Shown one piece after another: positions 8,597-24,899 of a stretch of DNA of 64,000 bases (the stretch's first letter is position 1; every line of letters begins with the position of its first letter). The notes below the pieces were generated by a model, which saw nothing but the letters and a program-made list of their open reading frames with translations, searched no databases and was not told where the DNA came from. This DNA is from Vibrio agarivorans (GTDB taxonomy: Bacteria > Pseudomonadota > Gammaproteobacteria > Enterobacterales > Vibrionaceae): contig NZ_JAUFQF010000004.1 in NCBI RefSeq assembly GCF_030409635.1, positions 2,514,241 through 2,578,240 of the forward strand, in the 5' to 3' direction. A program made the position numbers and the translations under genes.

Positions 8597-11500
8597 CTAA
8601 ACGTTGAGCAAACCAATAATTAATTTCTGTGTCAGATTAAACGCTTCATCGAAGTAGGTTTCATCAAACCTACGATATTCTCGCATCGCATGAACCACCT
8701 CAGCGGTCATTCGTAAATCAGCATGTCCAGCCGTCGCCAGTGCAAGCAGGACGGGAGCGTTCATTACATTGTTTTTAAATGAGTAATCACCAGTGAGACA
8801 CAGCTCTACGATCTGTCTGTGCACTCTTTGCATCACCCGCCCAAACACATCGTTCGCGTTATGGCATGGCCATTCATTTTCACACTTCCGCTGTGCCAAT
8901 TGACCACGTATGGCTCGCAGTTGAGCGGTATAATCACCGACCTCTATAAAGGACTTCTCTAAATTGAAAGCAATCTTGACGCCTAATAACTGTATTAGCG
9001 AAGAAAGGCTAGGAAAGAAAGATTCTAACTCCGATAGCTTTTTCATAATCCTGTCTTGGACCAGCTCTTCCATACCCTCTCCACCTAGTTTGTCCAGCAA
9101 GTAGTCATAGTAGGCTCGAACTACTTTAATAGACTGCTGAATATCGAGTGAAGTCCACAACATAGGAAACTGTGTATCCATCTGCCATACCGCTTCGATT
9201 TCTGACTTGTTAGCCTGCAGTAACAACGCAAGCATGAATTCAGGTTGCTGAGAGGCTCCGCGCCATAAATCGAAGGTCGTCAAAGGTACTTGATTGAAAG
9301 CTAATAATGTTCGAACGTACTTCCACTCAACCGATGAGTAGTCAGCGGCTAACTCTTTTGCTGCATGACTGAAGGCTTTGATGCGATCAATGTTTCGACT
9401 AATGCCGGCAGCAGCTTCAAAAGCGCCTTTAGGGGTCGGAAGAAGTTGTAGTTCTTTCGTCCACATAACAGGTCGAATGCCAAATTTAGGTTCGTTGCAA
9501 TAAACTAACCAAGCGCCCGGCTCGAGCTCTTCGTCAGGCATATGCCAACAATAGCGTTCAGAATCATCTACAGACTCTAGTTTCAGTGGAATAGGCGTCT
9601 GGTCTGGTTGTCCTAGGGGAATGGTAAACAAGTCTATAGCTGAGATATTATCTAGGTGTGAGTTCGCCGCTGAGCTCAAAACTACATGGCTATTAGAACG
9701 GTCTGGTAAGAGTGAACATTGATACAGTGCGAGATCAACGGAAAAAACTTCGTGGCCATGATGCATAACCTCCATTTTTACTTTTGCGTCCAGGCTTGTC
9801 GAAAGTGCAAATAGAGATTGAATGCTAGAACGAAATGCGGAGAGTGATAAACCAGCAGACATATCTTCGACCGAAGAGAGCACCGTTTTATAAAAAGCAG
9901 AACGAGCAAAGGCACCTCTGACGTCCTTAGCTTTCAGCGAGAACTGAACCTCAATCTCACCGTCTAATCCACAACCGTATAACTCATAGCTACTCAAGCT
10001 ATCAACCAAGATCTCACTGTGGTTGTCGACTCTCTGTTGCTTAGCGTCAAGTAAACACACTCCCTTACTAGGGAAAGGCAATCTCATTTCTATAGATTTA
10101 GGCTTATCTTGCCACCAAATTTCGAGATCTATGTATGCTGGCGGGTAAGCGCCATTGGCACTAAGTTCGAGAACTACTGCTTGCTCCGTTGAAGACAACT
10201 CCATTTTGACATGATCATGGTTGTCTTTTGCCAATGCTACCAAAGGGGGACAACTGGTTGATATGATTACTCTGCCTTGGCTAAGATCCTTAGCAGGAAT
10301 TAAATCAACTCGAAAATCACTCGGAACACTAGCAATTCGAAAGTGCTTGTTGGTACCTGACTGATTTGTGTATCGAACCTCACTTTTACCCGATGGTAGT
10401 GTGCTCAAAGAGGACCATTGTTGCTTGTTCAGATCGTGCCAATGAACCGAGCTATCCTGTATCGGAGTTCGAACACCTTGCTCATTCAGTTCTATAAGTT
10501 TTGGGGTGCCTATGAAGCTTTTTTGTGGCGTTGTTTGAAATGGTAAAACGTCACCTTGCCACACATACTCTTTGGGTTGAACCCTCTCACCTCCAAGTAC
10601 GATTTGATACTGACCGACCTTGTATCGACCAGCCTCTCGAAGCAATGTAAGCTGACGAACATCTTGCAAAGCAGAACTGGCTATGACCTCGCATTGCTCT
10701 GAAGCCGATTCGACAACATATCCTTGTTGAGTCGCAATGATTGCCTTGCTGGCCTCACAGATAACGTCCCCTGCGCCCGAGAACACCCATTGCTCTTCTT
10801 TCTCGATGAATACCCAAGGTTCTTTATCAGATGCCGAGCTACCTCCAATTACAGGAGCAAACCACGTCTCACCTTGATCATCTCTGGCCATCAACTCTAT
10901 TTCACAGCTAAACCAATCTGCAGGCAGCTGGCTTTCAAGGACATCTACTAAGTATCTATCCGGGGTATTTTTGGGGCGAAAGGCCTTCGCCACAAGAAGC
11001 GGTTTTTTGCCTACAGAGAAAAGACTGAAACGTTCAGGTAAGCTCGCCATGTTAAATAGCTGCTGAATGTAAAGTGTGTTGACGCGAGAACGCAACGTTA
11101 GTTCTAACGAGCAAACGTAGTTTACTTCAACCTCACTTATATCATCGACCGTAAAAGCATGCCTGTTGTGCTGTGGCTTTAACGAGCGAAGTAAACGAAT
11201 CGTTTCCGGCATTTTACGCTGAACAACAATCGCTTTACCTAACGCCCTGTCTAACAAGCTCTTAGCGACCGTATGCTCTATGTTGAGTGGCAGCCTATCT
11301 ACCCAGTTGGGCTCAACGACGTCAAGATACATTAAGGGATCTTCCTGCTTACCTAGGTCATGCTGATCGGCCAAAGAAAAAATCGCTTCAGCGATCTTAC
11401 CGACCACTGAGTAAACCGCATCGTTTCTAAATGAAGACGCAATATGATGATCATGTGCTTTTGCTATCGCCAATGAATCAGGCTTTGATAATGTGTATTT

Positions 11501-11989
11501 ACCAAAGTCTTGAATCACCTGTTCAAAGTAATAGGCGAGTTTACTGTTTGAATCGGTCACCAACTGCAGCGGCAGTCCCCCTTCAACAGCAACTGTTCCC
11601 AGAAACATATGACCTTGCGCATTCATTAGAATTGGCCTTCGCCAGTAGCGGCAGCCAGCGGCTACCATACGACTTCTCTGCGCTGGAGAAAGCTCTGACT
11701 CATGAATACCTAAAGCACCAAAAACAGGCTCCCAACTCCAATGTCCACCTGAAAACTCTCTGCGCCACCACTCCGAGGCAAACAATACAAAGGCCCCAGA
11801 CCATTCAGAACTGATAGCCGTCGGAACGTAACTGGATATGCTATTGCTTCGTAAACTGTCTGACAGTGATTGTTTCAATAATTCAAACTCGTTATCGCTG
11901 AGCTTATAGCTATAAAGTGGTTGTCCCGTCACTTTGTCTAAATCTCTAAAAGACAAAATTGACCGAATACAGTGTCTGAATGTGTTCAT
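8597..11989 (-). CDS. druH: Druantia type III DruH-like protein
   Basis: This 1130-aa protein has no motif I can name, no signal peptide and no membrane segment. It is predicted cytoplasmic, with a mostly beta-rich middle (about 400-800) and a helical C-terminus (about 870-1130). It sits directly before the DruE helicase gene with a 15-bp gap and is preceded by a ribosome-binding site (TAGGGACAAT). Druantia type III is known as a two-gene system of a large uncharacterised DruH plus DruE. The identification therefore rests on partner, order and size, not on a recognised domain. It may serve as the sensor or platform for DruE; that role is inference. Confidence 0.75.
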   Translation of the reverse strand: MNTFRHCIRSILSFRDLDKVTGQPLYSYKLSDNEFELLKQSLSDSLRSNSISSYVPTAISSEWSGAFVLFASEWWRREFSGGHWSWEPVFGALGIHESELSPAQRSRMVAAGCRYWRRPILMNAQGHMFLGTVAVEGGLPLQLVTDSNSKLAYYFEQVIQDFGKYTLSKPDSLAIAKAHDHHIASSFRNDAVYSVVGKIAEAIFSLADQHDLGKQEDPLMYLDVVEPNWVDRLPLNIEHTVAKSLLDRALGKAIVVQRKMPETIRLLRSLKPQHNRHAFTVDDISEVEVNYVCSLELTLRSRVNTLYIQQLFNMASLPERFSLFSVGKKPLLVAKAFRPKNTPDRYLVDVLESQLPADWFSCEIELMARDDQGETWFAPVIGGSSASDKEPWVFIEKEEQWVFSGAGDVICEASKAIIATQQGYVVESASEQCEVIASSALQDVRQLTLLREAGRYKVGQYQIVLGGERVQPKEYVWQGDVLPFQTTPQKSFIGTPKLIELNEQGVRTPIQDSSVHWHDLNKQQWSSLSTLPSGKSEVRYTNQSGTNKHFRIASVPSDFRVDLIPAKDLSQGRVIISTSCPPLVALAKDNHDHVKMELSSTEQAVVLELSANGAYPPAYIDLEIWWQDKPKSIEMRLPFPSKGVCLLDAKQQRVDNHSEILVDSLSSYELYGCGLDGEIEVQFSLKAKDVRGAFARSAFYKTVLSSVEDMSAGLSLSAFRSSIQSLFALSTSLDAKVKMEVMHHGHEVFSVDLALYQCSLLPDRSNSHVVLSSAANSHLDNISAIDLFTIPLGQPDQTPIPLKLESVDDSERYCWHMPDEELEPGAWLVYCNEPKFGIRPVMWTKELQLLPTPKGAFEAAAGISRNIDRIKAFSHAAKELAADYSSVEWKYVRTLLAFNQVPLTTFDLWRGASQQPEFMLALLLQANKSEIEAVWQMDTQFPMLWTSLDIQQSIKVVRAYYDYLLDKLGGEGMEELVQDRIMKKLSELESFFPSLSSLIQLLGVKIAFNLEKSFIEVGDYTAQLRAIRGQLAQRKCENEWPCHNANDVFGRVMQRVHRQIVELCLTGDYSFKNNVMNAPVLLALATAGHADLRMTAEVVHAMREYRRFDETYFDEAFNLTQKLIIGLLNV

Positions 11990-12046: not shown

Positions 12047-12385
12047 TTACTGCGGCAACAAATACCCCAAAAACATTTCAATATGCTCTAAGGTCTGTAC
12101 CTTGATTTTAAGCGCCGACTCCCCTCGCGTTAGACCAGGCGTGCTGTACGTGTTGCTGTGGCGCCCTTTGTCTTCGGAATAATGCGTTGTTGGGATCTCT
12201 GGTAATGTCACTTCACCAAATGGTTCGGGTAACCAGACATTGGCATACGACCCATCTTTTGGCGTGTCGACCTCAATCACGATGCCGAACTGACTTGTGA
12301 TATGCCATGCATTTACCTTTTTAGTGACGCGTGCTGGTTCACCAAATTCGAGTAAAAGCCTGTCTAATAGTTTGTCTCTAATCAT
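12047..12385 (-). CDS. Unknown 112-aa protein before druH
   Basis: This small soluble protein begins MIRDKLLDRLLLEFGEPARV and has a charged N-terminal helix. A beta-rich middle follows (WHITSQFGIVIEVDTPKDG, YANVWLPEPFGEV), then a C-terminal helix ending FLGYLLPQ. I do not recognise the family. It lies 57 bp upstream of druH on the same strand and 53 bp after restriction-gene remnants. No strong ribosome-binding site precedes the ATG. It could be a small accessory subunit of the Druantia unit or a leftover cargo gene. Confidence 0.55.
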   Translation of the reverse strand: MIRDKLLDRLLLEFGEPARVTKKVNAWHITSQFGIVIEVDTPKDGSYANVWLPEPFGEVTLPEIPTTHYSEDKGRHSNTYSTPGLTRGESALKIKVQTLEHIEMFLGYLLPQ

Positions 12386-12438: not shown

Positions 12439-12633
12439 TCACAAATGCGGGGGCTCACTCTTCATAAGCTTGTGAAATGGGTGATAGTCTCTGGTAATCA
12501 ATCGACTAAGTCCGCCCTGCTCTATTTCAAACGGGACAACCCACAACCGCAGGTCTTTAGTAAACTCAAATGAGAACTCTATCGGCTCTTGAAATCCATC
12601 ATGTCGTGGGTAAATCAGCACAAGATCACCGGC
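12439..12633 (-). pseudogene. McrC-like C-terminal remnant
   Basis: The minus-strand frame reads GAGDLVLIYPRHDGFQEP and then FEFTKDLRLWVVPFEIEQGG before stopping at 12439. The LIYP block followed about 25 residues later by LRLWVVPF matches what I know of the C-terminal end of McrC, the nuclease partner of the McrBC GTPase. Only about 60 residues remain, and a stop lies just upstream in this frame. The 5' end overlaps the end of the neighbouring DUF4145-like reading frame, so a deletion probably joined two restriction genes here. An ATG-less internal start at CTG/ATT makes independent translation doubtful. Confidence 0.45.
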
Positions 12634-12875
12634 TCCATCTTGATGCTGTCATCTACAAAAGGGATCTTGCCTAATTCGCGTAGTAGATCGTTTTGATTTT
12701 CGAGAATCTCAATATCGAGCAGTTTTGCTAGGTGCTTTGCCGTCGACTCTCCGAAAATTCTGAGTTTGACCAGAGTTGTATTCGGGTCATCAGGATAATT
12801 TTTTTCTGCGGCACGAGCGATAGCAAATAGAAAATCGTTAACGCCTTTCAGGAACTCAAAGTTAGATTTAGCCAT
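12615..12875 (-). CDS. DUF4145/HsdR-N-like 86-aa protein (probably truncated)
   Basis: The 86 residues begin MAKSNFEFLKGVNDFLFAIA and continue with DDPNTTLVKLRIFGESTAKH. This pattern matches the N-terminal DUF4145-type helical region of some type I restriction R subunits and related helicases, where it precedes the nuclease and helicase domains. Here the frame ends soon after ELGKIPFVDDSI, where a McrC-like segment begins in another frame. A strong ribosome-binding site (AAAGGAAAGATACT) and a 12-bp gap after the ring-nuclease-like gene suggest it is still translated as part of the unit. It is either a leftover of a larger gene or a small protein reused by the system. Confidence 0.5.
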   Translation of the reverse strand: MAKSNFEFLKGVNDFLFAIARAAEKNYPDDPNTTLVKLRIFGESTAKHLAKLLDIEILENQNDLLRELGKIPFVDDSIKMEPVILC

Positions 12876-12887
12876 AGTATCTTTCCT

Positions 12888-14036
12888 TTAACTCTCAGAT
12901 TCACAATGCTTGTTGATGACAGTCACTTCGATATCTGGACGACAAAGTGCAACTGAATAACGCTGGTTTACGCCTTCAGAAATCGACGTTACCTCCAACA
13001 TACCTGCTGTTTGAGTTGGTAAGGCTTTCTTAAGCTTGCGATTTATGGTCGAACAAATGGGCTGTAGGAAGTCTTTGCTCATACCAGATAATGATGAGTA
13101 ATCGCTCTCTGCAAAATCTTCAGGTGTGGTGCCAAAGGTGCCAAATACCCTTGGGTCACGTGCGAACTGGCGGTAAGTGTTTAGAAAATCGATGCTGTGC
13201 GTCTGTTGATCTTCAAAGTATCGATCAACAAGTAAACCCTCAGTACCTTTGTCTAAAAGCCAAAGATAGAACGCCAGCTCTTTGGCTGTCAGTGAAACAT
13301 CTATGCCTAATGTGGAAATCAATTTGGATGAGCCATCGATGGTAACGGACAGCTCTCCCTCTCGAGAGGAGTTCAACATGCCCACCGTTTGACTAAAAGA
13401 AAGATTAGCCATAGTGGATAGCACTGTTGGGTCAACGGCATTTCTCATCCTAACAAATGGAATTTCTGCCAATGTTACCGTCGCCTGACTTACATCGACT
13501 TCACCTTGGCCATTTTTACCCGTAACCCACTTTTGATTCTTGGTCGGATACCAAAAATCTCTAACAAACTCGTAAGCATCATCGACAAACACGTGGCTCA
13601 ATGTGTCCTGCGAGCGCCCGAACATGGACATCGCATAACCAAAATAGAATGCCATAGTTTTTCGTCCACCAGCTAGCGACGCATGAATTGCCGTGTGGTC
13701 ATATTGAGTTAACTCAAACACTTTTTTGGTAATGAAATCAGCCATAAAGGTTTGGTCTTCGATGGATTTGGCGTCGTCGATATACTCGCCTTTATCATCC
13801 TCTATCAACCAAACATGGCTTTCATCAAAGGTGAACTCTGGCAGTTGACATTCGTTTTTCAGCGCTTCTAGATGACCGTCTCGAATTAGACCATTGAGCA
13901 AAACATCTTTACTGCTTTGTGTGGTGATGACATACACTTCATCTGGAAATGGCCGCCCGCTCTTTGCTATGGCATAGAGTGTTTCTGTTAATACCTGAGG
14001 ACTTGCGCCTGTAGTTGAAAGCAAAATGTTTTTCAT
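12888..14036 (-). CDS. Cas_NE0113 (TIGR02584) family ring nuclease/Csm6-like protein
   Basis: The protein begins MKNILLSTTGASPQVLTETLYA, the typical opening of the Cas_NE0113 family, in which a CARF-like Rossmann fold binds cyclic oligoadenylate. ASLAGGRKTMAFYFGYAMS (about residues 120-138) matches the family's second conserved block. The C-terminal 150 residues hold a helical part (LTAKELAFYLWLLDKG) and an INRKLKKAL segment seen in longer members. I prefer the ATG at 14036 over a GTG three codons earlier. No CRISPR array or cas gene is in the window. It stands between the Zorya and Druantia modules, so it may link a nucleotide signal to one of them; that is inference. Confidence 0.75.
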   Translation of the reverse strand: MKNILLSTTGASPQVLTETLYAIAKSGRPFPDEVYVITTQSSKDVLLNGLIRDGHLEALKNECQLPEFTFDESHVWLIEDDKGEYIDDAKSIEDQTFMADFITKKVFELTQYDHTAIHASLAGGRKTMAFYFGYAMSMFGRSQDTLSHVFVDDAYEFVRDFWYPTKNQKWVTGKNGQGEVDVSQATVTLAEIPFVRMRNAVDPTVLSTMANLSFSQTVGMLNSSREGELSVTIDGSSKLISTLGIDVSLTAKELAFYLWLLDKGTEGLLVDRYFEDQQTHSIDFLNTYRQFARDPRVFGTFGTTPEDFAESDYSSLSGMSKDFLQPICSTINRKLKKALPTQTAGMLEVTSISEGVNQRYSVALCRPDIEVTVINKHCESES

Positions 14037-14118
14037 GTTATTCACTCAAATGAGAAATTACTCTGGCCTTGAAATCTGAACTTTCAGAGCCTCATTAACG
14101 AAACTATGTATGATTCAG

Positions 14119-16140
14119 CTAATTCTCGTTCACTTTGAACTTTTCTCGCAGTCGCTTGGCTCTGGCTCGATTAATAGAACTCCATTCCTCTTTATCTCTA
14201 TTATTCCACGAAGGCTTATAGACCTCTTCGAGAACATCCACAGTTTCCTGATAATTTTTTTCTTCCTTTTGATGTTTACTTTTCAAATAGCGACTTCGTT
14301 CACGGTTCATTTCATCCCACTCAGCTTTGTCTCGAGCACCGTTAATGAACGCACTACTATCTCTTGAAGAGCCTTTCATACTGTCCTGAAAAGAAATCCT
14401 GAAACGATTAGCAGTCTCCATTGCCTCTTGATGCCCGCACGAAGCAGCTTTGGACACCCAATCCTCTCCATACTTTCGAGTTCTCGCGTCACTATTTGTG
14501 CCTAACAGCATATTTTTTCCTAGCTGCCACATAGCTTCTGGGTTTCCTTGATTGGCAGCTTTTTTTATGAATAACTCGTAATCTGCTTGGTTCCCAAGTT
14601 GCTTAGCCATGATCGCTTTTGACAAATACAAAGTGCTTTTTTGAGCCAGCCCACGCAACTCACCAAACTTGCCGGTTTTAACCTCTGCTTCCCAAAATCT
14701 TTCAATCCACGTTTCTAAACTCGCCTTACGTTTCTGAACCATCCCTTCGTCTGGTTTTGGAAGACCTCTGCTCTCGGAGTACTGGCCTAGTGCTTTCGAT
14801 AAACCTTTGAAGGATTTAGTGCCATTATTTGGAAGGACTTTAAACTTGGTTCTAAGAAGCTTTTCACAATAGTGTTGCCAAAAATCAAGGTGGTCATGTA
14901 CTTCAAGCTGAGTCATAGTGCGAATGTCTTCACTTGTCAGAGCTTCGCTATCAAACAACTTTTGTGTATTCCAGTCACTCTTTTTATAAAATCGCGTTTC
15001 TGCAATGGTTCCTCGAAGAAACTCAACAACAAGCAAATTATCTAGTTCAAAGATATAGATCTCACTGTCTGTATTTGTGGAGTTTGGCAACACATGTACG
15101 AATTCGGGCAGGCCCCCATTTTGAGACTCAACCCAGTTATAGCTCTCGCTCGGAAGTAAAACCCTGACTCGTTCAAATCGACTACTGTAATTTGACCAGA
15201 ACTTGGAACGACTTCTAATCTGGCGGGTTTGGTAATCGTTAAAATCAAGCTGAATAGCCGCCTCTTCAGAGTAGAGGGCAGCAGAAATTGCATGCAAATC
15301 AAAGTAACTTGTTAAACCAAATTTCTTTTTTAACACTGCTTTTGATGCGCCACCAAGTTGAGGCCAGTAGCTGTTTTTCTTTAGAGGAAAACAGTGATTT
15401 TCTATGATTTCAGCACACTGGTCTCCGTAATCGAATTGTTCAAGCTTGCCTATAAAGCGCTCACAAAAATCAACTCTTTGTTGAGTGGTGTCTAATGCGT
15501 AAAAGTTGTTGGCAAGCCAAACATCATCAAAATCTGATAGATTCCCATCCGATATTGGACTTAGCAGGCAATTAGCCAACTCTGCCTTGTAACTGTTAGC
15601 TTGAGGCAACCTCAAAAACTTAATATAGCCACTTAAAGTCTGTTTACCTTGGTAGCAAAGCGATGCCATTTCATCAAAATCTTTTGTTTTTAGCGCCAAC
15701 AGCCAATCCAATTTGGCTTGATCTATCGCACTCCAGATAGGCACGGTTCTCGCTATATCTATCGATTCAACAAGTTCAGAAACTACACTCGTTGCTTTTC
15801 CATCTAACGCTAGCCCCATCTTGAACAGCGCAATATCTCCAAGCACCAGCTGACTACCAACACCGGTCCAGACCGCAACACAAGCACGCTCACGTTCTTG
15901 CTCGTTTAAGTTTTTCCACTGGACTTCGCTTTCAATCGCTTCTAACCATTCGAAAACATGAACTTCGTCTGACCTTTGAGCAGAGACGAGCGCCACTATT
16001 TGCATGAGTGTTTTTGGTGGAAAGCTCGGTGTCCTGTCGTCAGTAATTCCTAGTTCCAGAAACTCATCGAATGAATGGCTGGTTAACTTATTTGAGCTAG
16101 GTAATCTCGGCTGTGAGAACGAAAAACCTGAACTACTCAA
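14119..16140 (-). CDS. zorC: ZorC-like EH-signature protein with Sel1-type repeats
   Basis: This 673-aa cytoplasmic protein has a helical N-terminus. Its middle (about residues 280-430) contains RSRSKFWSNYSSRFERVRVL, LLVVEFLRG and VHDHLDFWQHY, the arrangement I associate with the EH_signature domain of Zorya type I ZorC. Residues about 540-620 hold two Sel1/TPR-like repeats (KAANQGNPEAMWQLGKNMLL, AASCGHQEAMETANRF), and the last 80 residues are very basic. Translation most likely starts at TTG 16140. That codon overlaps the end of the preceding zorB-like gene by 8 bp and has an AGAGGTG site 7 bases upstream. Type I systems follow ZorC with the SNF2 helicase ZorD; here no ZorD follows. ZorC binds DNA in type I Zorya according to published work; the same role here is assumed. 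Confidence 0.6.
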   Translation of the reverse strand: MSSSGFSFSQPRLPSSNKLTSHSFDEFLELGITDDRTPSFPPKTLMQIVALVSAQRSDEVHVFEWLEAIESEVQWKNLNEQERERACVAVWTGVGSQLVLGDIALFKMGLALDGKATSVVSELVESIDIARTVPIWSAIDQAKLDWLLALKTKDFDEMASLCYQGKQTLSGYIKFLRLPQANSYKAELANCLLSPISDGNLSDFDDVWLANNFYALDTTQQRVDFCERFIGKLEQFDYGDQCAEIIENHCFPLKKNSYWPQLGGASKAVLKKKFGLTSYFDLHAISAALYSEEAAIQLDFNDYQTRQIRSRSKFWSNYSSRFERVRVLLPSESYNWVESQNGGLPEFVHVLPNSTNTDSEIYIFELDNLLVVEFLRGTIAETRFYKKSDWNTQKLFDSEALTSEDIRTMTQLEVHDHLDFWQHYCEKLLRTKFKVLPNNGTKSFKGLSKALGQYSESRGLPKPDEGMVQKRKASLETWIERFWEAEVKTGKFGELRGLAQKSTLYLSKAIMAKQLGNQADYELFIKKAANQGNPEAMWQLGKNMLLGTNSDARTRKYGEDWVSKAASCGHQEAMETANRFRISFQDSMKGSSRDSSAFINGARDKAEWDEMNRERSRYLKSKHQKEEKNYQETVDVLEEVYKPSWNNRDKEEWSSINRARAKRLREKFKVNEN

Positions 16141-16789
16141 CTTTTTTCACCTCTGAGAAATTGCCAAGAAACTCTTCATCTTTGAACTGAAAGCGGAACT
16201 TCACCTTACGGTCAGCCGCATCGGCTGCGTCTTGTCGAGCTTCAATGGGGCCTCGTCCAGAAATTACCGCCTTATCGAAGAAGCGCTGTTTATTACTAAA
16301 TTCCATTGAGTTAACGAAAGCGATAACACTGTTTGCGCGTAAAACACTCAGTTCCATATTCCTGTCAAACGCGCCTTCGGAACTCGAATGTCCCTCAATC
16401 ACAACTCGGCTAACTTCGTCAGCGGTAGCTTGAGACTGAAAAATCGCATCAGAGTATATTGGAATGAACTTTTCCAAAAACTCTTGCCCTGACGCTTTCA
16501 ATTTATAGTCGTTGAGGTCAAATAAGATTGAATCCGTAATTGAGATATCACCTGTTTCGGGATCAGCTTGGACACCAATTCCCTCGGCATTCAACTTATC
16601 GTTGATATCTTTGATAATCACGATTCGAGTATTTTGACTCTCTTCATATACCTCAGAAATTTGAACCAAGGCGCTGATGAGCAGCAAGGCGAAGATCATC
16701 AGCAAGACTGACATTAAATCCCCGACCGAGAGCCATACACCAGACTCTTCTGCATCTGCAGTTCTTGGTGAGTGGGATAAACTCCTCAT
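16133..16789 (-). CDS. zorB: ZorB-like stator subunit, second (type I-like) pair
   Basis: This 218-aa protein has one N-terminal membrane helix (VWLSVGDLMSVLLMIFALLL) with the conserved Asp (about residue 24) that carries protons in MotB/ZorB proteins. It ends in an OmpA-like peptidoglycan-binding domain (about 120-200) with VVIEGHSSS and NMELSVLRANSVIAFV. It should form an inner-membrane motor with the ZorA-like protein encoded just upstream. The ATG at 16789 overlaps the upstream stop (TGATG), behind GGAGGCTTG, which indicates translational coupling. It is distinct from the second ZorB in the window (20289-20999). Confidence 0.85.
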   Translation of the reverse strand: MRSLSHSPRTADAEESGVWLSVGDLMSVLLMIFALLLISALVQISEVYEESQNTRIVIIKDINDKLNAEGIGVQADPETGDISITDSILFDLNDYKLKASGQEFLEKFIPIYSDAIFQSQATADEVSRVVIEGHSSSEGAFDRNMELSVLRANSVIAFVNSMEFSNKQRFFDKAVISGRGPIEARQDAADAADRKVKFRFQFKDEEFLGNFSEVKKVE

Positions 16790-18855
16790 CAAGCCTCCGC
16801 TCTATCTGCTTCAAATTCTCGATTTTGAACTTGAGCGTTAATCAAGTAGCCAGCTGCTTGTGACAGTTTATTATGGATCGTGCTTGCCGATTGGTCGAAA
16901 TCATTGAAGAAAGTTTCAAAGCTCTCATTTGCTCGCGAGAAGTATTCGTCCATGGCTTTCGGCAGGTTCTCTGTCACATCGGTAAACGACGCAGAAGCCG
17001 TTGCATACTCTTTCTTCAATAGTGCGATTTGTCTTCCCATTGTTTGCGCAGCATCTTGAAGCTCTGCCATTCTCGACGCTTCATTTAACCCAATAGCCTT
17101 CGCTACACGCTCAACTGTTTGAGCTGATGCTTCTAGCTTTTGATACTGTGCTGTGAGTTCTTGAAGCAGATTGTGGCGGGCTTGGTATTCGCTCTCAAAG
17201 ACTTTGCGGAAATTCTCTACAACTTCATTGAGACCATTACGTTGCTTGCTCAAGCTGCCTTCTAGAAGCGAATTCTGCTGCTCGAAGTACGATGTTAGAT
17301 TCTGTTGATACTGCAGTCGGAAAGCTTCTAGTTCTTTTTGAACAGTTGTCGACATCGACTTAACTTTTTCATCAATGTCGCCCAAGCCTGACTCCAACTC
17401 TTGCTTCGCTGAAGTCATTAAACTACTTGCTTGGTCACCTACAGCTTCCAACACATCTGTTTGTTGTTTGAATGCAGCACTTGAACCTTCGATGAGTGCA
17501 TTGATTCGAGTCTCCACACCGTCGAACAATGCATGTTCTTTTTGTTGCCTTTCGTCTAGCGCTCCATCCATTGACGTTTTGATTCCTTCGAAAGCTGCAG
17601 AAGCTCTTCCCGCACTGAGTTCAAAGGCATCCCTCTGCTCTTCCAGACCTTTCGAAGCGCCATCAAGCAATGTTTGGACTTCTTTCGCGATTGTAGACAT
17701 CGCTCCTTGAGTGTCGTCTTTAAAGCTCGCGAGAATTTGCTTTAGTGATTCAGCAAACTGTTGCAACTTGTCCATTGTATCTTTCTGGAACTCGTTGATT
17801 GTCTCTACAGTTTGCGCAGTGCTGGTCACCACTTTCTCAACATTAGCATTAAGCTGAGCGGAAACTTCATTACTCTGAGAGACTGCTTCACTTGTTTTCT
17901 TAAGCTCTTCTGATACAGGGTCAATCAACTCTGATTTCATCTTATCCACGAGCAACTCAACTAGCTCTTTTTGTGATTGCTCTTTGATGTCTCTAAGAGC
18001 AGAGAGTTCTCCTCTTATCGCTTGCATTGCAGGCGTAAGCTGGTCTTCGATTGATCCCCTGACTGCCTCAGATACTTTCTCCGCTATTGCATTGCCATCG
18101 AATGAGTCACCTAGGTTATTAAGGGAAGCGGCAGTATCCCTAAACTGTTGGCTCATGCTTTCGATAGCTGAAGCAGAACGCAACTGCGCGGCAACCACTT
18201 CCTGCTGCCCTTCATTCGACATGTTCTTCAGATAATGGACTGGGCTCGCCTCGAAGTATTGACTTGAAATAGCTTTTAAGAATGCTCCTTGAGCTTTAGA
18301 AAGACGGCTTGAAGACATTTTCATTAAAGCCATAAACACGGCTGAGCTACTTAAACCAGCTAGAGAAGTGTAAAAAGCTGTTTTCATACCTTCCAAGAGC
18401 TCAGCAGCAGAGCTCAGCAACGCTTTGGAATCTCCAGCCATACTGAACTGACTTAAGCCAAGCGTGATCCCTAGAAACGTACCAGTGATGCCTATGCTGG
18501 TTAAGAGAGCAGGAACCAACTTGTAGCGGGTCGAATCACAAGATGGAAGCATATGAGACAGAGGTGACTTCGTTAACCAAAGCCCCGCTTTGCTCTCTAT
18601 TTTCAGACCATTTTCGGTAGGCGTATAAACTAGGTGTTCAGCCAACCATTTAAGTTGAGGCTCCGATAAGCTTTCAGGCTCTACTAGGTCTGAAGAATGA
18701 TTGTTTTTAAGGCCGGCGATAGCTTTAAGCTGCGAGATTGCCCCCCAAGTAGCCTTTATTTCACGCACTGCGAAAAAGAAGAACAAAGCTAACGTTGTGA
18801 TGATGATAATATCTGTTACCCCATCACCCGATATGATTGCGACGCTGTCTAGCAT
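16789..18855 (-). CDS. zorA: ZorA-like motor subunit with long coiled-coil tail (second pair)
   Basis: This 688-aa MotA/TolQ/ExbB-type protein has a first membrane helix at about residues 13-30 (DIIIITTLALFFFFAV). A cytoplasmic insert of about 80 residues follows, then two more helices (LVPALLTSIGITGTFLGITL and AFYTSLAGLSSSAVFMALM). The remaining roughly 480 residues are a predicted alpha-helical coiled-coil tail rich in Glu, Gln, Ser and Ala. Published Zorya structures show ZorA pentamers with a long intracellular tail around ZorB dimers, turning proton flow into a signal for nuclease recruitment. The start has AAGGAATAG upstream. The insert after helix 1 makes it look like the type I form, unlike the 694-aa paralogue downstream on the map. 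Confidence 0.85.
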   Translation of the reverse strand: MLDSVAIISGDGVTDIIIITTLALFFFFAVREIKATWGAISQLKAIAGLKNNHSSDLVEPESLSEPQLKWLAEHLVYTPTENGLKIESKAGLWLTKSPLSHMLPSCDSTRYKLVPALLTSIGITGTFLGITLGLSQFSMAGDSKALLSSAAELLEGMKTAFYTSLAGLSSSAVFMALMKMSSSRLSKAQGAFLKAISSQYFEASPVHYLKNMSNEGQQEVVAAQLRSASAIESMSQQFRDTAASLNNLGDSFDGNAIAEKVSEAVRGSIEDQLTPAMQAIRGELSALRDIKEQSQKELVELLVDKMKSELIDPVSEELKKTSEAVSQSNEVSAQLNANVEKVVTSTAQTVETINEFQKDTMDKLQQFAESLKQILASFKDDTQGAMSTIAKEVQTLLDGASKGLEEQRDAFELSAGRASAAFEGIKTSMDGALDERQQKEHALFDGVETRINALIEGSSAAFKQQTDVLEAVGDQASSLMTSAKQELESGLGDIDEKVKSMSTTVQKELEAFRLQYQQNLTSYFEQQNSLLEGSLSKQRNGLNEVVENFRKVFESEYQARHNLLQELTAQYQKLEASAQTVERVAKAIGLNEASRMAELQDAAQTMGRQIALLKKEYATASASFTDVTENLPKAMDEYFSRANESFETFFNDFDQSASTIHNKLSQAAGYLINAQVQNREFEADRAEA

Positions 18856-18857
18856 AT

Positions 18858-19202
18858 TTAACTATTCCTTAAAAACTTACTTATTTCACTTGAAGTAAAA
18901 ATCTGTTCTGCAATGCGTGCTGGTAGGTGCTCAGCATCTTCTCGAACTACACCATTTACTAGTACTTTGTCTCTGAGCCGTACGCTGTACAAAGCTTCTT
19001 CGTGATCATCACTATCAGAGGCTACTCGCAGATAGACCTCTTCTGGAAACTCCCTGAGAAGCGTTGCCTGAAGTGATGACTTTGTATCTCTCAAGGAATT
19101 TGTAGCAATGAAGTCGGCTCCAAACTCCTCTTTGGATAGCTTCCAAGCGTGGTTGACTGAAATAATTCGCTCCAATACTTGATCCAATCTCATCTTCATC
19201 AT
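18858..19202 (-). CDS. Unknown 114-aa protein linking two Zorya modules
   Basis: The protein starts at ATG 19202, overlapping the stop of the HNH gene (TGATG) with GAGG five bases upstream, and ends 2 bp before the second zorA. It reads MMKMRLDQVLERIISVNHAW, then FGADFIATNSLRDTKSSLQA, and ends FTSSEISKFLRNS. It is soluble and acidic in its middle (DSDDHEEALYSVRL), with no motif I can name. Tight overlap on both sides says it belongs to the operon. It could be a small adaptor or inhibitor shared by both motor sets; that is only inferred from position. Confidence 0.7.
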   Translation of the reverse strand: MMKMRLDQVLERIISVNHAWKLSKEEFGADFIATNSLRDTKSSLQATLLREFPEEVYLRVASDSDDHEEALYSVRLRDKVLVNGVVREDAEHLPARIAEQIFTSSEISKFLRNS

Positions 19203-20287
19203 CAATGCCTCAACGTGTGAGCCAGGCTTCTGTAATCACTCAGAAACTCATTTACTGTTATTACTTGCCAACCTTGTTTCAGTGCATCATTGATATCATT
19301 TGGTGAAATCGCTACGCCAAATCGACGTTTAGGCCAAGCTAGCTCAATACGAGAAGCTATATCACCCAGAGTATCCTTCACATAGTAGTTAACTTCTGGT
19401 AGCGAAACGTGTACTTCGCGACAGGCATGTAAAACACCATGCACGCCTGGGTCTGATAACTCAAAAAGCTCTTGCCATCCACCAAGATCATCCAATAGAC
19501 CTTGATCCTTGCGAAGATCGTTAATCAATTGTCTTTCGCGATGGCTCAAGACCATATGCTGGTGTTTTGGTTGTTTGCTATGACAATCGATACACAGAGC
19601 CCGTAGGTTCTTGTCGCGATTATCCGATTTCACCCCATTTATATGATGTACATGCAATAGAGCTCGGTTCGAACGTAAATTGACCTTGCAGTCCTCACAT
19701 TCAAAGTTTCTATCTACACGATAATGCGACGATATCTTTGCCCAATCTTCGGTGTATCCTGTCTGCGCTGTCTCAGCATCTCTTGCTGGCATGTGAGGAA
19801 AAAAAGAGCTATATGTTGCAAAAAACTCCGCCATATCAAAGTCAGCAACTATTGAGCGCATGTTGTTAGACGAATTACATCCTTTATAGTTGAGTTTTCT
19901 CAAGCAATTCTGGCAGACCTTAAGCCGTGCCTTGGTTTCTCCGTAACCCGAATCAACGATAAACTCTCCTGACGTGTTATTAGTTACAACATATCTTTCA
20001 AAGCGTCCATTGGCTCTCATAGACTGCAGGGTCTTACAATCTGACACGTGAAATCGAGCACTTGATCCGTTCGCTTTGATATAAAGCGTTACGTGTCTGC
20101 CCTTGTAGCTCAGAAGACCAGATTCGATTTCTACATCTTTGAGTTCTACATCTTTACCCTGCTCGAGTTCCTTATCGACTTTTGCGATGTTCGTTTCTTC
20201 ATAAACAAGGTTAAATGAACCCTTTTTTTCGGGTTGCATGACGTTTATTGCAGTCAATAGTGACCCTAGATTGAGAGTCAGCTTCAT
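19202..20287 (-). CDS. zorE: ZorE: HNH endonuclease of Zorya type II
   Basis: This 361-aa protein carries an HNH nuclease module at about residues 195-245. Zinc cysteines (FECEDC and ALCIDCH) frame LLHVHHINGVKSDNRDKNLR, which supplies the catalytic His and the Asn. A further Cys set (CQNCLRKLNYKGC) is at about 125-137. The N-terminal 110 residues are beta-rich and may be a recognition domain. In type II Zorya a single HNH protein, ZorE, replaces ZorC and ZorD and nicks or cuts invading DNA at the motor. The gene starts 1 bp after the zorB stop, with GGAGCAGAATAGA upstream. Confidence 0.85.
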   Translation of the reverse strand: MKLTLNLGSLLTAINVMQPEKKGSFNLVYEETNIAKVDKELEQGKDVELKDVEIESGLLSYKGRHVTLYIKANGSSARFHVSDCKTLQSMRANGRFERYVVTNNTSGEFIVDSGYGETKARLKVCQNCLRKLNYKGCNSSNNMRSIVADFDMAEFFATYSSFFPHMPARDAETAQTGYTEDWAKISSHYRVDRNFECEDCKVNLRSNRALLHVHHINGVKSDNRDKNLRALCIDCHSKQPKHQHMVLSHRERQLINDLRKDQGLLDDLGGWQELFELSDPGVHGVLHACREVHVSLPEVNYYVKDTLGDIASRIELAWPKRRFGVAISPNDINDALKQGWQVITVNEFLSDYRSLAHTLRH

Positions 20288-20288
20288 T

Positions 20289-20999
20289 CTATTCTGCTCC
20301 CAAAATCTTGAGTATTTGTTGTTCTGCGTTTGTTATTACACGGAAAGAAACTCGACGAGAACGCTGCTCATCTTCAATACCTTGCTTATCATAGGTCAAC
20401 TTTGAAGATGAATACCCTACCGCTGCAACGTTGCCCTTCACCCAGTCGTAGTGTTTGTTTTTAACTGGCTCTAAAGCCATCACATAACCAAGCACAGCTC
20501 TTGTTCGGGACTGAGATAGTCTCATGTTGTTGAAGTACGCCTCGTAGTCAGAAGACCCAGTATTCCAACGACTTGAGGTATGTCCTTCAATCTTAATTTC
20601 CTGAATTATCGGCTGATATTTTTCGAGTACAGCAAGGTAACGAGGAAAAAAATCAATCAGTATAGTTTGAAACTGGTCCGTTAAGATGGCCTTACCGTTA
20701 GCAAATAAAACCTCAGGAGCTGTGAAGTTCACACTTAACGTGTCGCGGTCAATTTCCGCTCCCCATGTATCCAAATCTTTAGAGAACTCCTCTAGAAGAG
20801 CCAAGTAAATAGCTTGCTGCGTTTGTTGATAGGTTTCAGCGACTTCCTTAATCTTATCCCGTTCAATCATTGCATCTCTCATTAGTGCAACAGAGATGAA
20901 CAGGAACACCATCATTAGGCCAGCCATTAGATCAGAGACGGACATCCAGTGTTCGCCTCCACTCTCTTTGACGCTTGTCTTACCAAATAGCTTTTCCAT
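20289..20999 (-). CDS. zorB: ZorB of Zorya type II
   Basis: This 236-aa protein has a single N-terminal membrane helix with the proton-carrying Asp23 (SVSDLMAGLMMVFLFISVAL). The C-terminal OmpA/MotB-like domain (about residues 130-225) has IKIEGHTSSRWN and NMRLSQSRTRAVLGYV, which should anchor it to peptidoglycan. It begins 2 bp after the zorA stop and is followed by the HNH gene after 1 bp, the canonical zorA-zorB-zorE order. Length is normal for the family. Sequence similarity to the second ZorB in this window is limited to the helix and the OmpA core, so the two are not a recent duplication. Confidence 0.9.
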   Translation of the reverse strand: MEKLFGKTSVKESGGEHWMSVSDLMAGLMMVFLFISVALMRDAMIERDKIKEVAETYQQTQQAIYLALLEEFSKDLDTWGAEIDRDTLSVNFTAPEVLFANGKAILTDQFQTILIDFFPRYLAVLEKYQPIIQEIKIEGHTSSRWNTGSSDYEAYFNNMRLSQSRTRAVLGYVMALEPVKNKHYDWVKGNVAAVGYSSSKLTYDKQGIEDEQRSRRVSFRVITNAEQQILKILGAE

Positions 21000-21001
21000 G
21001 G

Positions 21002-23038
21002 TTACGCAGCCGCTCCCGCATTGACTACATTGGACATTTCTCTAACCAACTTTTGGTAGTCTCTTGTAAACTGCTGGGTAATCGTCGCTAAGGCTTCGCC
21101 CATCTCATTCATAGTGCGATTGATTTCCTGCTGCATTTGAATATCAAGTACTTCTACTTGCTTCTCGACTGCGCTTCCGGTCTTGCCTACGGAGTCTGTG
21201 ATCTGGTCTTCCAAACTATCAAAAGTACGTCGCACGGCCTGTGCTTGAACTTGGAATACCTCTTCTAAAGTGGTCTCCAGTCGGTCCTGCAGTTTTGTTA
21301 TGGCCGCCGTGGTTTCGTTTTGGATCTCTTTTGTGCTCGCTAGCAAGTCTTGGTTCGCTTCTTTCAACACGCGGCCTGTTTCTTTCGAGTCATCTTTAAT
21401 ATCTGCAACTAAGACTCGTAATTGACCATTAAGTTCTGTAATTGAATCTTCAAGATGTTGACGAATCTGTTCTGTCGTATCTGTTAGGTGATTAGTAACA
21501 TTGCTCAGACCACCTGTAGCAGTGCCAACTTGTTCTTGGATATCAGACGAGGCTTCTGCAAGCTTGCCCCCAATATCTTGGGCACTGTCTCGTAGTTGCG
21601 TTGAAATATCCTGTGCGCCTGACTCTAGATTACTTCTCATCAGGTTCATGCTTTCTTCTGTGGTGGATGCGAGTTCACTTGAGGAGTTTGTTAATGTCGT
21701 TGAGATCTCTTTTGTCGTAGCATCAAGATCTTCAGCGATTCTCTTAACGCCTGCCTCGAAGCTATCTTTAATACCTTCAACACCACTTTCGGTTACTTGC
21801 GAAAACTCTTTACTTGCATCTGTTAACTGATGACTAATTTGCTCAGCACTAGACGTTAACTCTTGAGCTAGCTTGTTCGCGCCTTCTTCCAAATTAGTGC
21901 GCATAACATCAACACTCTCACTAGCTGATGAGCTGAAGTTGTCAATGATAGTTTGTGACTCATTTAGCATTGATTCGTAATGTGTTGAAGCTGCTTTAAC
22001 TGAATCTCCGATAACACTCATAGTGCTATCCATCTGTTCTCGAATCTGTGGCATAGCCTCCACAGCTTTGTCACGTAGGTCTTTGAAGGCTTCTAGACGC
22101 TGCTCTAGTTCAGTTACCTGACCATGCCCAAGCTCCATCACTTGATGCAATTTCTCCATCGTTACTGGAATTGACTCAGCACGCTCATTAATGTTGGCAA
22201 CTGACTTCTCTGTTGATGAAATAGCATCTACACCCAACTGGTATTTTGTTGCCATATCTTCCAACTGAATTCGATAGTTCTCTTGCCAAACTACAAGTTT
22301 CTTAACTGATTCATCAAGGCGCTTGAAGTTTTCACCAAATTGCTCGGTTAACTTTTCGTTGAAGTCAACAATCACTTCTTTAAGTGCGTTGATTACTTGC
22401 TCAGTCGCAGATTTTGAAAGCAACTCGCCAAATTCATCCATTTTCTGCCATAAAGTATGCTGGAACTTTTCATGTCGCTCAGTTGTTTGGTCAAACTGAT
22501 CCTTTAAAACACGTTGTCCATCACTAATGTCTATTCGCAACTTCTTAATTTGCGATGTCAAAGATGAATCTTCATCCCCCTTGATTGCAGAAAGGAGTTC
22601 ATTTGACGCATTAAGTTGATCGTTCGATGCTTTTAGTTGTTCAGACATTACCGAGAAGATTTCTTCCGGGCCAACAGACTGACTAGCCTCTTGTTCTCTT
22701 TGTGGAATTAGTCCAAGTGCAGCTTTGTAAAAAATGGAGCCTGCCATCCCAGCTAGACTAGTAAGAAACGCTGTTTTCAGACCACCTAGCAACAACTCAA
22801 TACTTCCATCAATGTTTTTAGGGTCAAAGTCCATTAACCCAACCACGATTCCTGCAAAAGTTCCCAATATTCCTAAAGACGTGAGGATATTAGTTGTGCT
22901 AGCGGTGAATCTGGGTGCTTTACCAGCCAAAGCTAAAGTAATTGAACCTAATAAAAGTCCAATAATCAAATAGATAAAAGCATTTGAAATAGATTCAGCA
23001 GTAAAGGAGGCGATGAATGAAGCTAGTTGTTCGGTCAT
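21002..23038 (-). CDS. zorA: ZorA of Zorya type II
   Basis: This MotA/TolQ/ExbB-type inner-membrane protein is 678 residues long from the preferred ATG at 23038 (MTEQLASFIASFTAES); an in-frame ATG 16 codons upstream gives 694. Three membrane segments lie in the first 120 residues (AFIYLIIGLLLGSITLAL, ILTSLGILGTFAGIVVGLM, LKTAFLTSLAGMAGSIFYKA). The last 500 residues form a long coiled-coil tail. Its middle shows degenerate repeats of the form S-x3-E-S/G-x3-M-R-x-N-L-E-x-G-A with varying filling (MRTNLEEGANKLAQEL, MRSNLESGAQDISTQL). This is the first gene of the defence operon. With ZorB it would form the phage-sensing proton-driven motor. Confidence 0.9.
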   Translation of the reverse strand: MTEQLASFIASFTAESISNAFIYLIIGLLLGSITLALAGKAPRFTASTTNILTSLGILGTFAGIVVGLMDFDPKNIDGSIELLLGGLKTAFLTSLAGMAGSIFYKAALGLIPQREQEASQSVGPEEIFSVMSEQLKASNDQLNASNELLSAIKGDEDSSLTSQIKKLRIDISDGQRVLKDQFDQTTERHEKFQHTLWQKMDEFGELLSKSATEQVINALKEVIVDFNEKLTEQFGENFKRLDESVKKLVVWQENYRIQLEDMATKYQLGVDAISSTEKSVANINERAESIPVTMEKLHQVMELGHGQVTELEQRLEAFKDLRDKAVEAMPQIREQMDSTMSVIGDSVKAASTHYESMLNESQTIIDNFSSSASESVDVMRTNLEEGANKLAQELTSSAEQISHQLTDASKEFSQVTESGVEGIKDSFEAGVKRIAEDLDATTKEISTTLTNSSSELASTTEESMNLMRSNLESGAQDISTQLRDSAQDIGGKLAEASSDIQEQVGTATGGLSNVTNHLTDTTEQIRQHLEDSITELNGQLRVLVADIKDDSKETGRVLKEANQDLLASTKEIQNETTAAITKLQDRLETTLEEVFQVQAQAVRRTFDSLEDQITDSVGKTGSAVEKQVEVLDIQMQQEINRTMNEMGEALATITQQFTRDYQKLVREMSNVVNAGAAA

Positions 23039-23350
23039 GATTTTTTGTTTGTAAACCTTTTCCTGTACGAAGTTTACGCACACCATACATTAATGCGTAC
23101 TTGGTACAATAAAATTATCTGTAGTATTTTAGTCGTCTTTGAGCTTTAGTTACTTGTCATTTCGCGACAAGTTCACAACTTCCATGTGATTTTTCAATTA
23201 ATGCCATAATTTCAATGATATAGCCCCCAACAAACAAAGAGTGCCCAAAAACGTTGTAATGTCAGAGAAGTTACTAGTTTATTCATTGTGCAGCCTTCAA
23301 TAAACTCGTTATTGTCAAACTCATAATGATAATATTGTAAGTTAGGCGAC

Positions 23351-23948: not shown

Positions 23949-24899
23949 TTATGCAGCTTCCAGCCGTGAAATAATCGCCTCAAGCGGTAACTCTTTGTCA
24001 CGAATCAGGCCAACTACCGCTTCAATGTCTTCTTCACGATTTAGCGCCAATGCTTGGTTGATGTCGTCAATCAATGTTAGAGCCTGTGCTTTTGACAAGT
24101 TACGGAGCAGCGCCACTCGATTGCTTGATGACATCGCCATTAGTTCACTGGCTGAGTCAGACGAAACGGCATTTGAGTTACTAATGCTGTCTAGTTTAGG
24201 CTTATGATCATTGACAAGAGTTTTATCATCATTGAGCTTAACAATGTTTGTTGCTCGAAACTCTTCAATATCTTCGCCAGTCATCACTGTTTCAACTGGC
24301 AGAGGAGTCACTGTTTTTTGTTGGTACTTGGCTTTGCTTTCTAGTAACTCGGCATAATAAGCGGCTGTCGGGAGCATAAAGATGAGATGTCTCATTACAT
24401 TATCCTCGATCTCTTTTAGCTCTTTGCGTTTTAAGTAAGCGCCCTGCTTTCTCGATTGTAGTGCTAAAGCCACGGAGTGCTGCACTGTATCAATTCGAGC
24501 GGGGTTAATACTATCCACGCTTTGTGTTTCTAGAACTAGACTCTCTTCCTGTGACTTTAGAATCTCAACGCGAGTACGCAAAGACTTCACGCAGCCTTGG
24601 ATGAGTTTATCATTTGATAGCTGAAATGGGAGTCGAGGCTTAGGTTTCTGAACGGATTCTGGCATTTCTACTTTGCTTGCTCTTATTTCACGCTTCACTT
24701 CAGCCATAAAGTTGTTGATTGTCTTACTATCTGAGGGTGTTGAGCCTGTAAATATTGGTTTAGGTACACCTTCAATCAATACTTTGAGGTGGTTTGTCTG
24801 TGTTCTCTCATAACTGAATGGCGTCTCTGTGCCCAAATGGTCGTTTAAGAATTTGATGACACGTTTTTGGTATTTGCTGTAGCTGGATAACTTGCACAT
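23949..24899 (-). CDS. Unknown 316-aa protein, HicA-like N-terminal pattern
   Basis: The N-terminal 70 residues (YQKRVIKFLNDHLGTET, then NHLKVLIEGVPKPIFTGSTP and SDSKTINNFMAEVKRE) follow the strand-strand-TPSD-helix pattern of HicA-like, double-stranded-RNA-binding-type folds. The rest is helical and polar, with no membrane segment. Residues 90-210 include LIQGCVKSLRTRVEILKSQE, and a Ser/Asn-rich linker near 230-255 leads to a C-terminal helical part that ends ELPLEAIISRLEAA. I do not recognise the full-length family. It is transcribed toward the Zorya operon but separated from it by 910 bp. A nucleic-acid-binding or regulatory role is possible, but that is inference. Confidence 0.6.
   Translation of the reverse strand: MCKLSSYSKYQKRVIKFLNDHLGTETPFSYERTQTNHLKVLIEGVPKPIFTGSTPSDSKTINNFMAEVKREIRASKVEMPESVQKPKPRLPFQLSNDKLIQGCVKSLRTRVEILKSQEESLVLETQSVDSINPARIDTVQHSVALALQSRKQGAYLKRKELKEIEDNVMRHLIFMLPTAAYYAELLESKAKYQQKTVTPLPVETVMTGEDIEEFRATNIVKLNDDKTLVNDHKPKLDSISNSNAVSSDSASELMAMSSSNRVALLRNLSKAQALTLIDDINQALALNREEDIEAVVGLIRDKELPLEAIISRLEAA

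Follow-up and report, generated by a model that had tools for sequence, protein, structure and literature searches.

We analyzed a 64,000-nucleotide stretch of the Vibrio agarivorans genome (assembly GCF_030409635.1, contig NZ_JAUFQF010000004.1, positions 2,514,241 to 2,578,240; hereafter, the window) that carries two different motors of the defense system Zorya. Seven genes in the order zorA-zorB-zorE-X-zorA-zorB-zorC lie on the minus strand with spacings of 1 to 2 bp or overlaps of 4 to 8 bp, and PADLOC assigns the first motor to Zorya type II and the second to type I. The arrangement agrees with a preliminary description of this DNA, in which a type II set is followed by a different ZorA-ZorB pair on one transcript. 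That second pair forms the motor of a module of four genes, X-ZorA-ZorB-ZorC (here, X-ZorABC), which is without ZorD and constitutes its own branch of Zorya. On the 3' side of the second zorC follow, in order, a CARF gene, a stub of hsdR, a 112-aa gene, and the Druantia type III genes druH and druE. The preliminary description covered both motors and left these five downstream features and the 115-aa gene X undescribed. Both druH and druE are full length in the window, and both match Druantia type III in PADLOC. The Zorya and Druantia genes are as follows.

21002..23038, minus strand: zorA of the type II set; the open reading frame (ORF) starts at 23086, with the likely ATG at 23038; PADLOC ZorA2, 959.8 bits.
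20289..20999, minus strand: zorB of the type II set; PADLOC ZorB2, 344.2 bits; PF00691, 37.0 bits; channel Asp and OmpA-type peptidoglycan motif intact.
19202..20287, minus strand: zorE, HNH nickase/nuclease, 361 aa; PADLOC ZorE, 528.6 bits; HNH motif intact.
18858..19205, minus strand: gene X, 115 aa, a conserved gene that opens the second module; 39 homologues.
16789..18855, minus strand: zorA of the second module (X clade); PADLOC ZorA1, 471.0 bits.
16133..16792, minus strand: zorB of the second module; PADLOC ZorB1, 236.2 bits; PF00691, 29.3 bits; channel Asp and peptidoglycan-binding motif intact.
14119..16140, minus strand: zorC of the second module (EH_Signature); PADLOC ZorC1, 211.9 bits over residues 39 to 480; PF15611, 39.5 bits.
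8597..11989, minus strand: druH, Druantia III; PADLOC DruH3, 1503.6 bits.
2354..8581, minus strand: druE, Druantia III YprA-family helicase-nuclease and proposed effector of the second module; PADLOC DruE3, 2322.8 bits; 98% identical to DruE of genome G295.

The first set has the content that defines Zorya type II, namely ZorA2, ZorB2, and the HNH protein ZorE with its motif. All three proteins score below the NCBIfam equivalog cutoffs (353.5 of 700 bits for ZorA2, and 272 of 400 and 303.6 of 600 bits for the other two). Type II is still the best NCBIfam match, and judged by these profiles the first set is a divergent type II Zorya.

In the second set, ZorA, ZorB, and the EH-signature ZorC are homologues of the type I families according to the PADLOC scores listed above and a PF15611 match above cutoff, and the NCBIfam scores are far below cutoff (35.6 of 750 bits for ZorA1, 60.2 of 400 bits for ZorB1). 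A shared position of the motor core falls at residue 116 of the second ZorA and at residue 66 of the first ORF (residue 50 from the likely ATG), which confirms the insert that had been noted after the first helix of the second ZorA; this insert is the type I layout. The two ZorB proteins of the window are 33% identical over residues 15 to 176 (E-value 1.3e-7), and both contain an OmpA domain. The channel Asp and the peptidoglycan-binding residues are present in both and in 27 of 27 ZorB rows from group-1 modules, as distinct from the group-2 loci described below, where one ZorB row (L034) has Asn in place of His.

We built a ZorA motor-core profile from the homologues of the second-module ZorA itself. 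This profile scored 36 to 177 bits on Zorya ZorA proteins of all kinds and at most 7.4 bits on host PF01618 proteins (MotA, TolQ, ExbB), and an IQ-TREE phylogeny of 52 core sequences (host_L085 was left out, because the wrong ORF had been picked) split Zorya from the host proteins with support of 100/99. Together, the profile scores and the split rule out the possibility that the second pair is an ordinary MotAB, TolQR, or ExbBD system of the host, and its identification as Zorya stands. One clade (99/97; here, the X clade) unites second-module ZorA proteins from the window, distant bacteria, group 2, and a Nostoc plasmid. Type II (81/73) falls outside the X clade, and so do three canonical type I rows, which do not themselves form one clade; with a core of only ~125 residues and a program warning about long branches, the order among these clades is unsure. 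Given the separate ZorA clades and the low identity between the ZorB proteins, a recent duplication of the pair is ruled out, as the preliminary description had argued. Lengths of the second-module ZorA proteins fall in steps of 58 aa (688, 746, 804, 862, and 978), with 862 the commonest (49 of the 120 homologues listed), as if the cytoplasmic tail gained or lost one fixed unit.

Searches with gene X against PADLOC, Pfam, and NCBIfam gave no match. AlphaFold2 predicts a compact alpha/beta fold (mean predicted local distance difference test score 91.0), for which a comparison with the PDB returned no convincing relative. Mantel correlations of distances within the module are high (26 loci: ZorA-X 0.94, ZorA-ZorB 0.95, ZorA-ZorC 0.91; locus L010 was excluded from this work), and because X tracks the second-module ZorA in this way, it behaves as a subunit of the module. 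The corresponding values are 0.87 to 0.92 inside the type II set, 0.60 to 0.75 between the two Zorya sets (19 loci), and 0.46 to 0.55 with HsdR (15 to 17 loci). The lower correlation between sets than within them indicates that the two Zorya sets are separate modules that often travel together.

The ZorC of the window carries ~190 extra C-terminal residues, with a weak NCBIfam match to ExoR at residues 521 to 608; ZorC from Nostoc (480 aa) and from group 2 (473 aa) is without most of this region. ZorD had no match in the whole genome to which the window belongs (G000) in a search that had no positive control, and none was labeled behind ZorC in the module loci annotated with a ZorD query, the same query that labels ZorD in the type I loci L038 to L040. 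No nuclease was recognized in the second module, and ZorF and ZorG had no match among 10 window proteins in a PADLOC library whose inclusion of such models is unconfirmed.

A profile search matched 26 of 329 Vibrionaceae genomes, 17 with the group-1 module, five with group 2 only, and four with canonical type I. Zorya II lies directly upstream of the module, on the same strand and with ZorE adjoining X, in all 17 of the genomes with a group-1 module; the gene order of the window recurs and is therefore not unique to this strain. Type II ZorB matches were found in 40 Vibrionaceae genomes, leaving 23 without the module. The X profile matched 9 of 394 genomes in an order-wide sample, and G000 was the sole match to the ZorA profile among 369 genomes in a class-wide sample. 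Altogether, we count 32 gammaproteobacterial genomes in which X-ZorA-ZorB-ZorC stand in that order. They comprise 30 loci, the window, and Grimontia indica, where the genes span two contigs, and one of the 32 has a transposon between zorB and zorC. A further two copies, L043 and L021, are split or truncated. Locus L077 was merged with L015, the two being contigs of one genome, and L022 to L024 were excluded because they do not represent the module.

A second kind of double motor occurs in the group-2 loci (L027, L033 to L037), which read X-ZorA-ZorB-ZorC-ZorA-ZorB-(321 aa)-ZorB; the 321-aa gene between the two zorB genes has no assignment. The additional motor groups with two of the three canonical type I rows, a placement for which possible long-branch attraction is flagged. 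Vibrio inusitatus (G176) has both kinds of double motor, with four zorA genes in one array. Beyond the gammaproteobacteria, the Nostoc plasmid AP018320 encodes X (94.2 bits, E-value 1.3e-30, in a four-protein search) together with ZorA, ZorB, and ZorC (PADLOC type I scores of 900.6, 243.6, and 587.0 bits, respectively). Behind its ZorC come a BrxHII/DrmD-like helicase and a PglX/DrmMI-like methylase, then a 414-aa gene, and finally a YprA helicase, which PADLOC matches best to DruE (308.6 bits). The Nostoc module, with its ARMADA-like pairing, is a single locus.

DruE was found in 30 of the 33 module genomes examined, comprising 21 of 22 Vibrionaceae and 9 of 11 genomes outside the family (L008, L012, L016, L017, L018, G488, G509, G1054, and G1055; L005 is not part of this count). 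In each of the 21 Vibrionaceae genomes, DruE or DruH is on the contig of the module and in the same region. The three genomes with no DruE match are G433, with zorA broken into two ORFs, and the pair G114 and G1056, where the module runs off the end of the contig. A genome-wide search matched DruE in 32 of 329 Vibrionaceae genomes, including the 21 with the module; comparing module genomes with the rest gives a Fisher value of 3.7e-24, which, because the genomes are related, is an index rather than a probability. Of the 23 Vibrionaceae genomes that have Zorya II and no module, three have DruE, one of them as a stop-bearing remnant. The four ZorABCD-type Vibrionaceae loci have neither X nor DruE (ZorD was identified by PADLOC in L038 and by similarity in two more).

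In the shortest layouts, DruH-DruE follows X-ZorA-ZorB-ZorC after 29, 31, or 140 bp (three loci), and in G488 and G509 DruHE is upstream rather than downstream of the module. Short loci of the X-ZorABC-DruHE kind occur in Nitrincola tibetensis (L018) and Alteromonas lipolytica (L012). Within ~10 kb of the module, HsdR is the first large gene encountered in most Vibrionaceae, and DruH takes that position in others. When 15 loci were extended by up to 20 kb, DruH was found behind the restriction-modification (RM) genes in all 15, so the HsdR and DruH labels had merely shown which partner was met first. We therefore dropped the idea that HsdR and Druantia are interchangeable partners, and we withdrew as evidence of swapping the Fisher counts made by eye (16/16 versus 2/23; 30/32 versus 2/23) and the 5 to 6 partner changes on a tree. 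The usual Vibrionaceae array, all on one strand, consists of ZorA2-ZorB2-ZorE, X-ZorA-ZorB-ZorC, a CARF gene or the 112-aa gene or neither, HsdR-HsdM-HsdS, McrB-McrC, and DruH-DruE; McrB-McrC is absent from 2 of the 15 extended arrays (L095, L100). Representative HsdR, HsdM, HsdS, McrB, and McrC proteins were checked by Pfam, and the others were labeled by similarity.

Between zorC and druH, the window contains the following features.

12888..14045, minus strand: CARF protein, Cas_NE0113/Csm6-like, with a further C-terminal domain; TIGR02584, 211.2 bits (cutoff 80.65); CARF fold match, E-value 2.5e-7.
12615..12875, minus strand: hsdR stub of 86 codons, the first 78 codons of hsdR and then foreign sequence up to the stop.
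12643..12644, no strand: junction of a 21.8-kb deletion relative to G295, fusing hsdR codon 78 to the 3' part of mcrC.
12047..12385, minus strand: 112-aa gene without a Pfam match, seen repeatedly in these arrays, either ahead of HsdR or between McrC and DruH.

The closest array found is that of G295, in which the full set spans 42.0 kb. Compared with G295, the window is 95.2% identical up to 12643 (L029, inside hsdR) and 96.1% identical from 12644 (L090, 3' part of mcrC), with 21810 bp deleted between the junction points. Lost in the deletion were HsdM, HsdS, and McrB, the greater part of both HsdR and McrC, a VWA-PP2C-kinase group, and four further genes; both motors, the CARF gene, and Druantia III stayed in place. 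This clean internal deletion, with no replacement, excludes a swap of partners in the window. The stub is 97% identical to residues 1 to 78 of a relative's HsdR. Elsewhere in the window's genome (G000:C1:968390-971950) lies a different HsdR relative, full length and with 43% identity. In G126 (L033 927-1175, L076), an 82-aa ORF corresponding to the HsdR N terminus precedes McrBC and Druantia III, with the break at a different codon from that of the window. The VWA, PP2C, and kinase genes and four further genes between HsdR and HsdM occur in G295 and G157 (L029 17912-20000, L090 1-10818, L030, L091; Pfam for G295).

The CARF domain is Csm6/ring-nuclease-like, and a search of the window's genome for cas10 was empty. 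Because the CARF gene is also not constant in the arrays, we place it outside the proposed core. Of 10 CARF relatives aligned, nine are beside HsdR or DruH and one (L003) is upstream of Zorya II; more CARF copies stand behind DruE in L096, L099, L101, and L102. At the borders of the array, transposase genes (rve integrase core and HTH_Tnp_1 by Pfam) lie directly 3' of druE at positions 942 to 2066. A 316-aa gene without a family (23949 to 24899) has counterparts upstream of the array in L003, L006, L010, L011, L014, L028, L029, and the group-2 locus L036. Near the array border lies a 282-aa gene (25250 to 26098) with a look-alike, recognized by eye, at a corresponding border position in Shewanella gaetbuli (L014 8001-8867); the two possibly mark an island edge.

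The module has a defined content and a ZorA clade of its own, no ZorD was found with it, its linkage to DruE is near-obligate, and in several genomes it occurs independently of a second motor. A tie to DruE is also favored by the three loci with DruH close behind ZorC, by the deletion in the window, which removed type I RM and McrBC and spared the two ends of the array, and by the Nostoc module's pairing with a set that includes a DruE-related YprA helicase. ZorAB is an ion-driven motor that requires peptidoglycan binding and the cytoplasmic tail and has been proposed to recruit ZorCD or ZorE (PMC11890865; here and below, statements attributed to this paper, to PMC13192584, and to PMC12458937 refer to the portions of each that were covered). 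Zorya I defense is lost on deletion of any component (PMC11890865), so ZorABC alone should need a partner. DruE is described as a helicase-nuclease and DruH as a likely sensor in the portions of the literature covered. We propose, with confidence evenly divided for and against, that X-ZorABC is a distinct, ZorD-less Zorya branch linked to Druantia III, in which DruE is used in the place of ZorD and X is a candidate adaptor. In such a system, ZorB would touch or grip the peptidoglycan on phage injection, ion flow would rotate the ZorA tail, and the tail, acting through X and ZorC, would recruit or license DruE, together with DruH, where the phage enters; DruE would thereby fill the role that ZorD has in type I. 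Zorya II, where present, might work in parallel through ZorE, providing an early nicking arm alongside the Druantia arm. A broader form of the proposal, which we advance tentatively and at somewhat less than even chances, is that X-ZorABC serves as a portable membrane-sensing front end for systems built on YprA-family helicases (Druantia III and ARMADA), to which X would connect it as adaptor. The whole would be one composite system, whose rotary motor guides a helicase-nuclease of another defense family to the incoming phage genome. If this is true, the front end would amount to a new Zorya type and give the coupling of Zorya and Druantia a physical basis.

Several observations weigh against a functional link between the module and DruE. 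DruE matches occur in 11 of 307 module-free Vibrionaceae genomes (two of the matches are partial), druE of the module genome G200 has an in-frame stop, and DruH can be separated from ZorC by 24 kb that include RM genes or can stand upstream of the module (L066, L105). In addition, Druantia III genes function in Escherichia coli constructs that have no X-ZorABC (PMC13192584), and the lack of a convincing fold relative makes the adaptor role of X a guess. The linkage may reflect mere co-transfer of an ordered defense array, in which Zorya II, X-ZorABC, type I RM, McrBC, and Druantia III would each be self-sufficient and would have moved as a block. This is the chief rival, and one we consider doubtful. 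It accords with the long, same-strand, gene-rich arrays of Vibrio, with the phage-type integrase beside one array (L030, Pfam) and similar ORFs beside others, with the neighborhoods of Zorya II, Druantia III, and RM already reported (PMC13192584), and with the 11 genomes just mentioned. However, both Zorya II and Druantia III are found in genomes that lack the module, whereas module genomes without DruE number just 3 of 33, and in all three the module copy is split or truncated. Were the module a free rider equipped with an effector, it should stand alone more often, and it contains no recognized nuclease.

The preliminary description had suggested that both ZorAB motors form a compound machine that senses different cues or shares effectors such as ZorE. 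Its premise holds, in that paired motors are real and recurrent: Zorya II is directly upstream in every Vibrionaceae genome with a group-1 module, the group-2 motor directly behind ZorC provides a second arrangement, and V. inusitatus combines four zorA genes. The compound itself fares less well. We searched nine non-Vibrionaceae module genomes (some of them drafts, one a metagenome-assembled genome) with the type II ZorB at an E-value of 1e-3, and seven of the nine gave a single ZorB match, the module's own; six of these seven have DruE and an unbroken zorA (including L012, L017, and L018). A missing second ZorB is not proof, because these genomes include drafts and a metagenome-assembled genome and a distant ZorB could escape the query. 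Type II ZorB also had no match at an E-value of 1e-20 in the five group-2-only genomes, and distance correlations are lower across the modules than within them. We therefore regard a two-motor machine as improbable; with the module and DruE present and no second ZorB detected in six genomes, and with DruE in 30 of the 33 module genomes, a Druantia III-linked sensor describes the second motor better than does half of a two-motor machine or a unit that chiefly accompanies Zorya II. A further alternative, that ZorC with X is the executioner through DNA binding or a catalytic activity not recognized here, with no outside nuclease needed, seems to us highly improbable. The extra C-terminal residues of the window's ZorC and the absence of a known family for X would suit this idea, but the shorter ZorC proteins of Nostoc and group 2, the dependence of Zorya I on each of its components (PMC11890865), and the DruE linkage, which the idea leaves unexplained, all speak against it.

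Zorya II and Druantia III have been reported to be synergistic in E. coli, and a recent explanation invokes shared DNA intermediates. With a ZorD-less Zorya module that is almost always found in linkage with Druantia III, a direct alternative can be tested, in which membrane sensing and DNA destruction are split between families and joined by an adaptor. Our results suggest that a membrane motor responding to phages can be coupled to a system of another family that destroys DNA. They also carry a warning, since profile libraries file the second module as ordinary type I although the effector is missing. The parts of the module are not unknown, because PADLOC type I profiles already catch these proteins; the novelty lies in gene X, in the link to Druantia, and in a unit of four genes that has no ZorD. 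The term "ZorC" is absent from the main text of PMC13192584 and of PMC12458937, and we found neither a ZorD-less ZorABC module nor gene X in the literature as judged by titles and the openings of abstracts. Genomes with both Zorya I and Zorya II were sought by cblaster in PMC11890865, and their co-occurrence may be recorded there.

Compared with known systems, the first set of the window matches all three genes and motifs of Zorya type II (ZorA2-ZorB2-ZorE), and it differs in scoring under the NCBIfam equivalog cutoffs and in having a second motor module behind it. With Zorya type I, under which PADLOC files it, the second module shares its ZorA layout, a ZorB, and an EH-signature ZorC, but it is without ZorD, begins with an extra 115-aa gene, has a separate ZorA clade, and has Druantia III nearby. 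The Nostoc locus contains the BrxHII-like, PglX-like, YprA-like order given for many cyanobacteria in ARMADA type I (PMC12458937), whereas X-ZorABC, unmentioned in the section of that paper on ARMADA I order, precedes the Nostoc set. The pairing of Zorya II with Druantia III in E. coli and the Zorya-Druantia-ARMADA islands (PMC13192584, PMC12458937) likewise place the same two systems in one array, with YprA helicases as effectors. Those islands have only Zorya II in the text covered, whereas here X-ZorABC stands between the two systems and also occurs with Druantia in genomes without Zorya II. Finally, Druantia type III (DruH-DruE) is described as a two-gene system, and in the window it is linked to a motor module.

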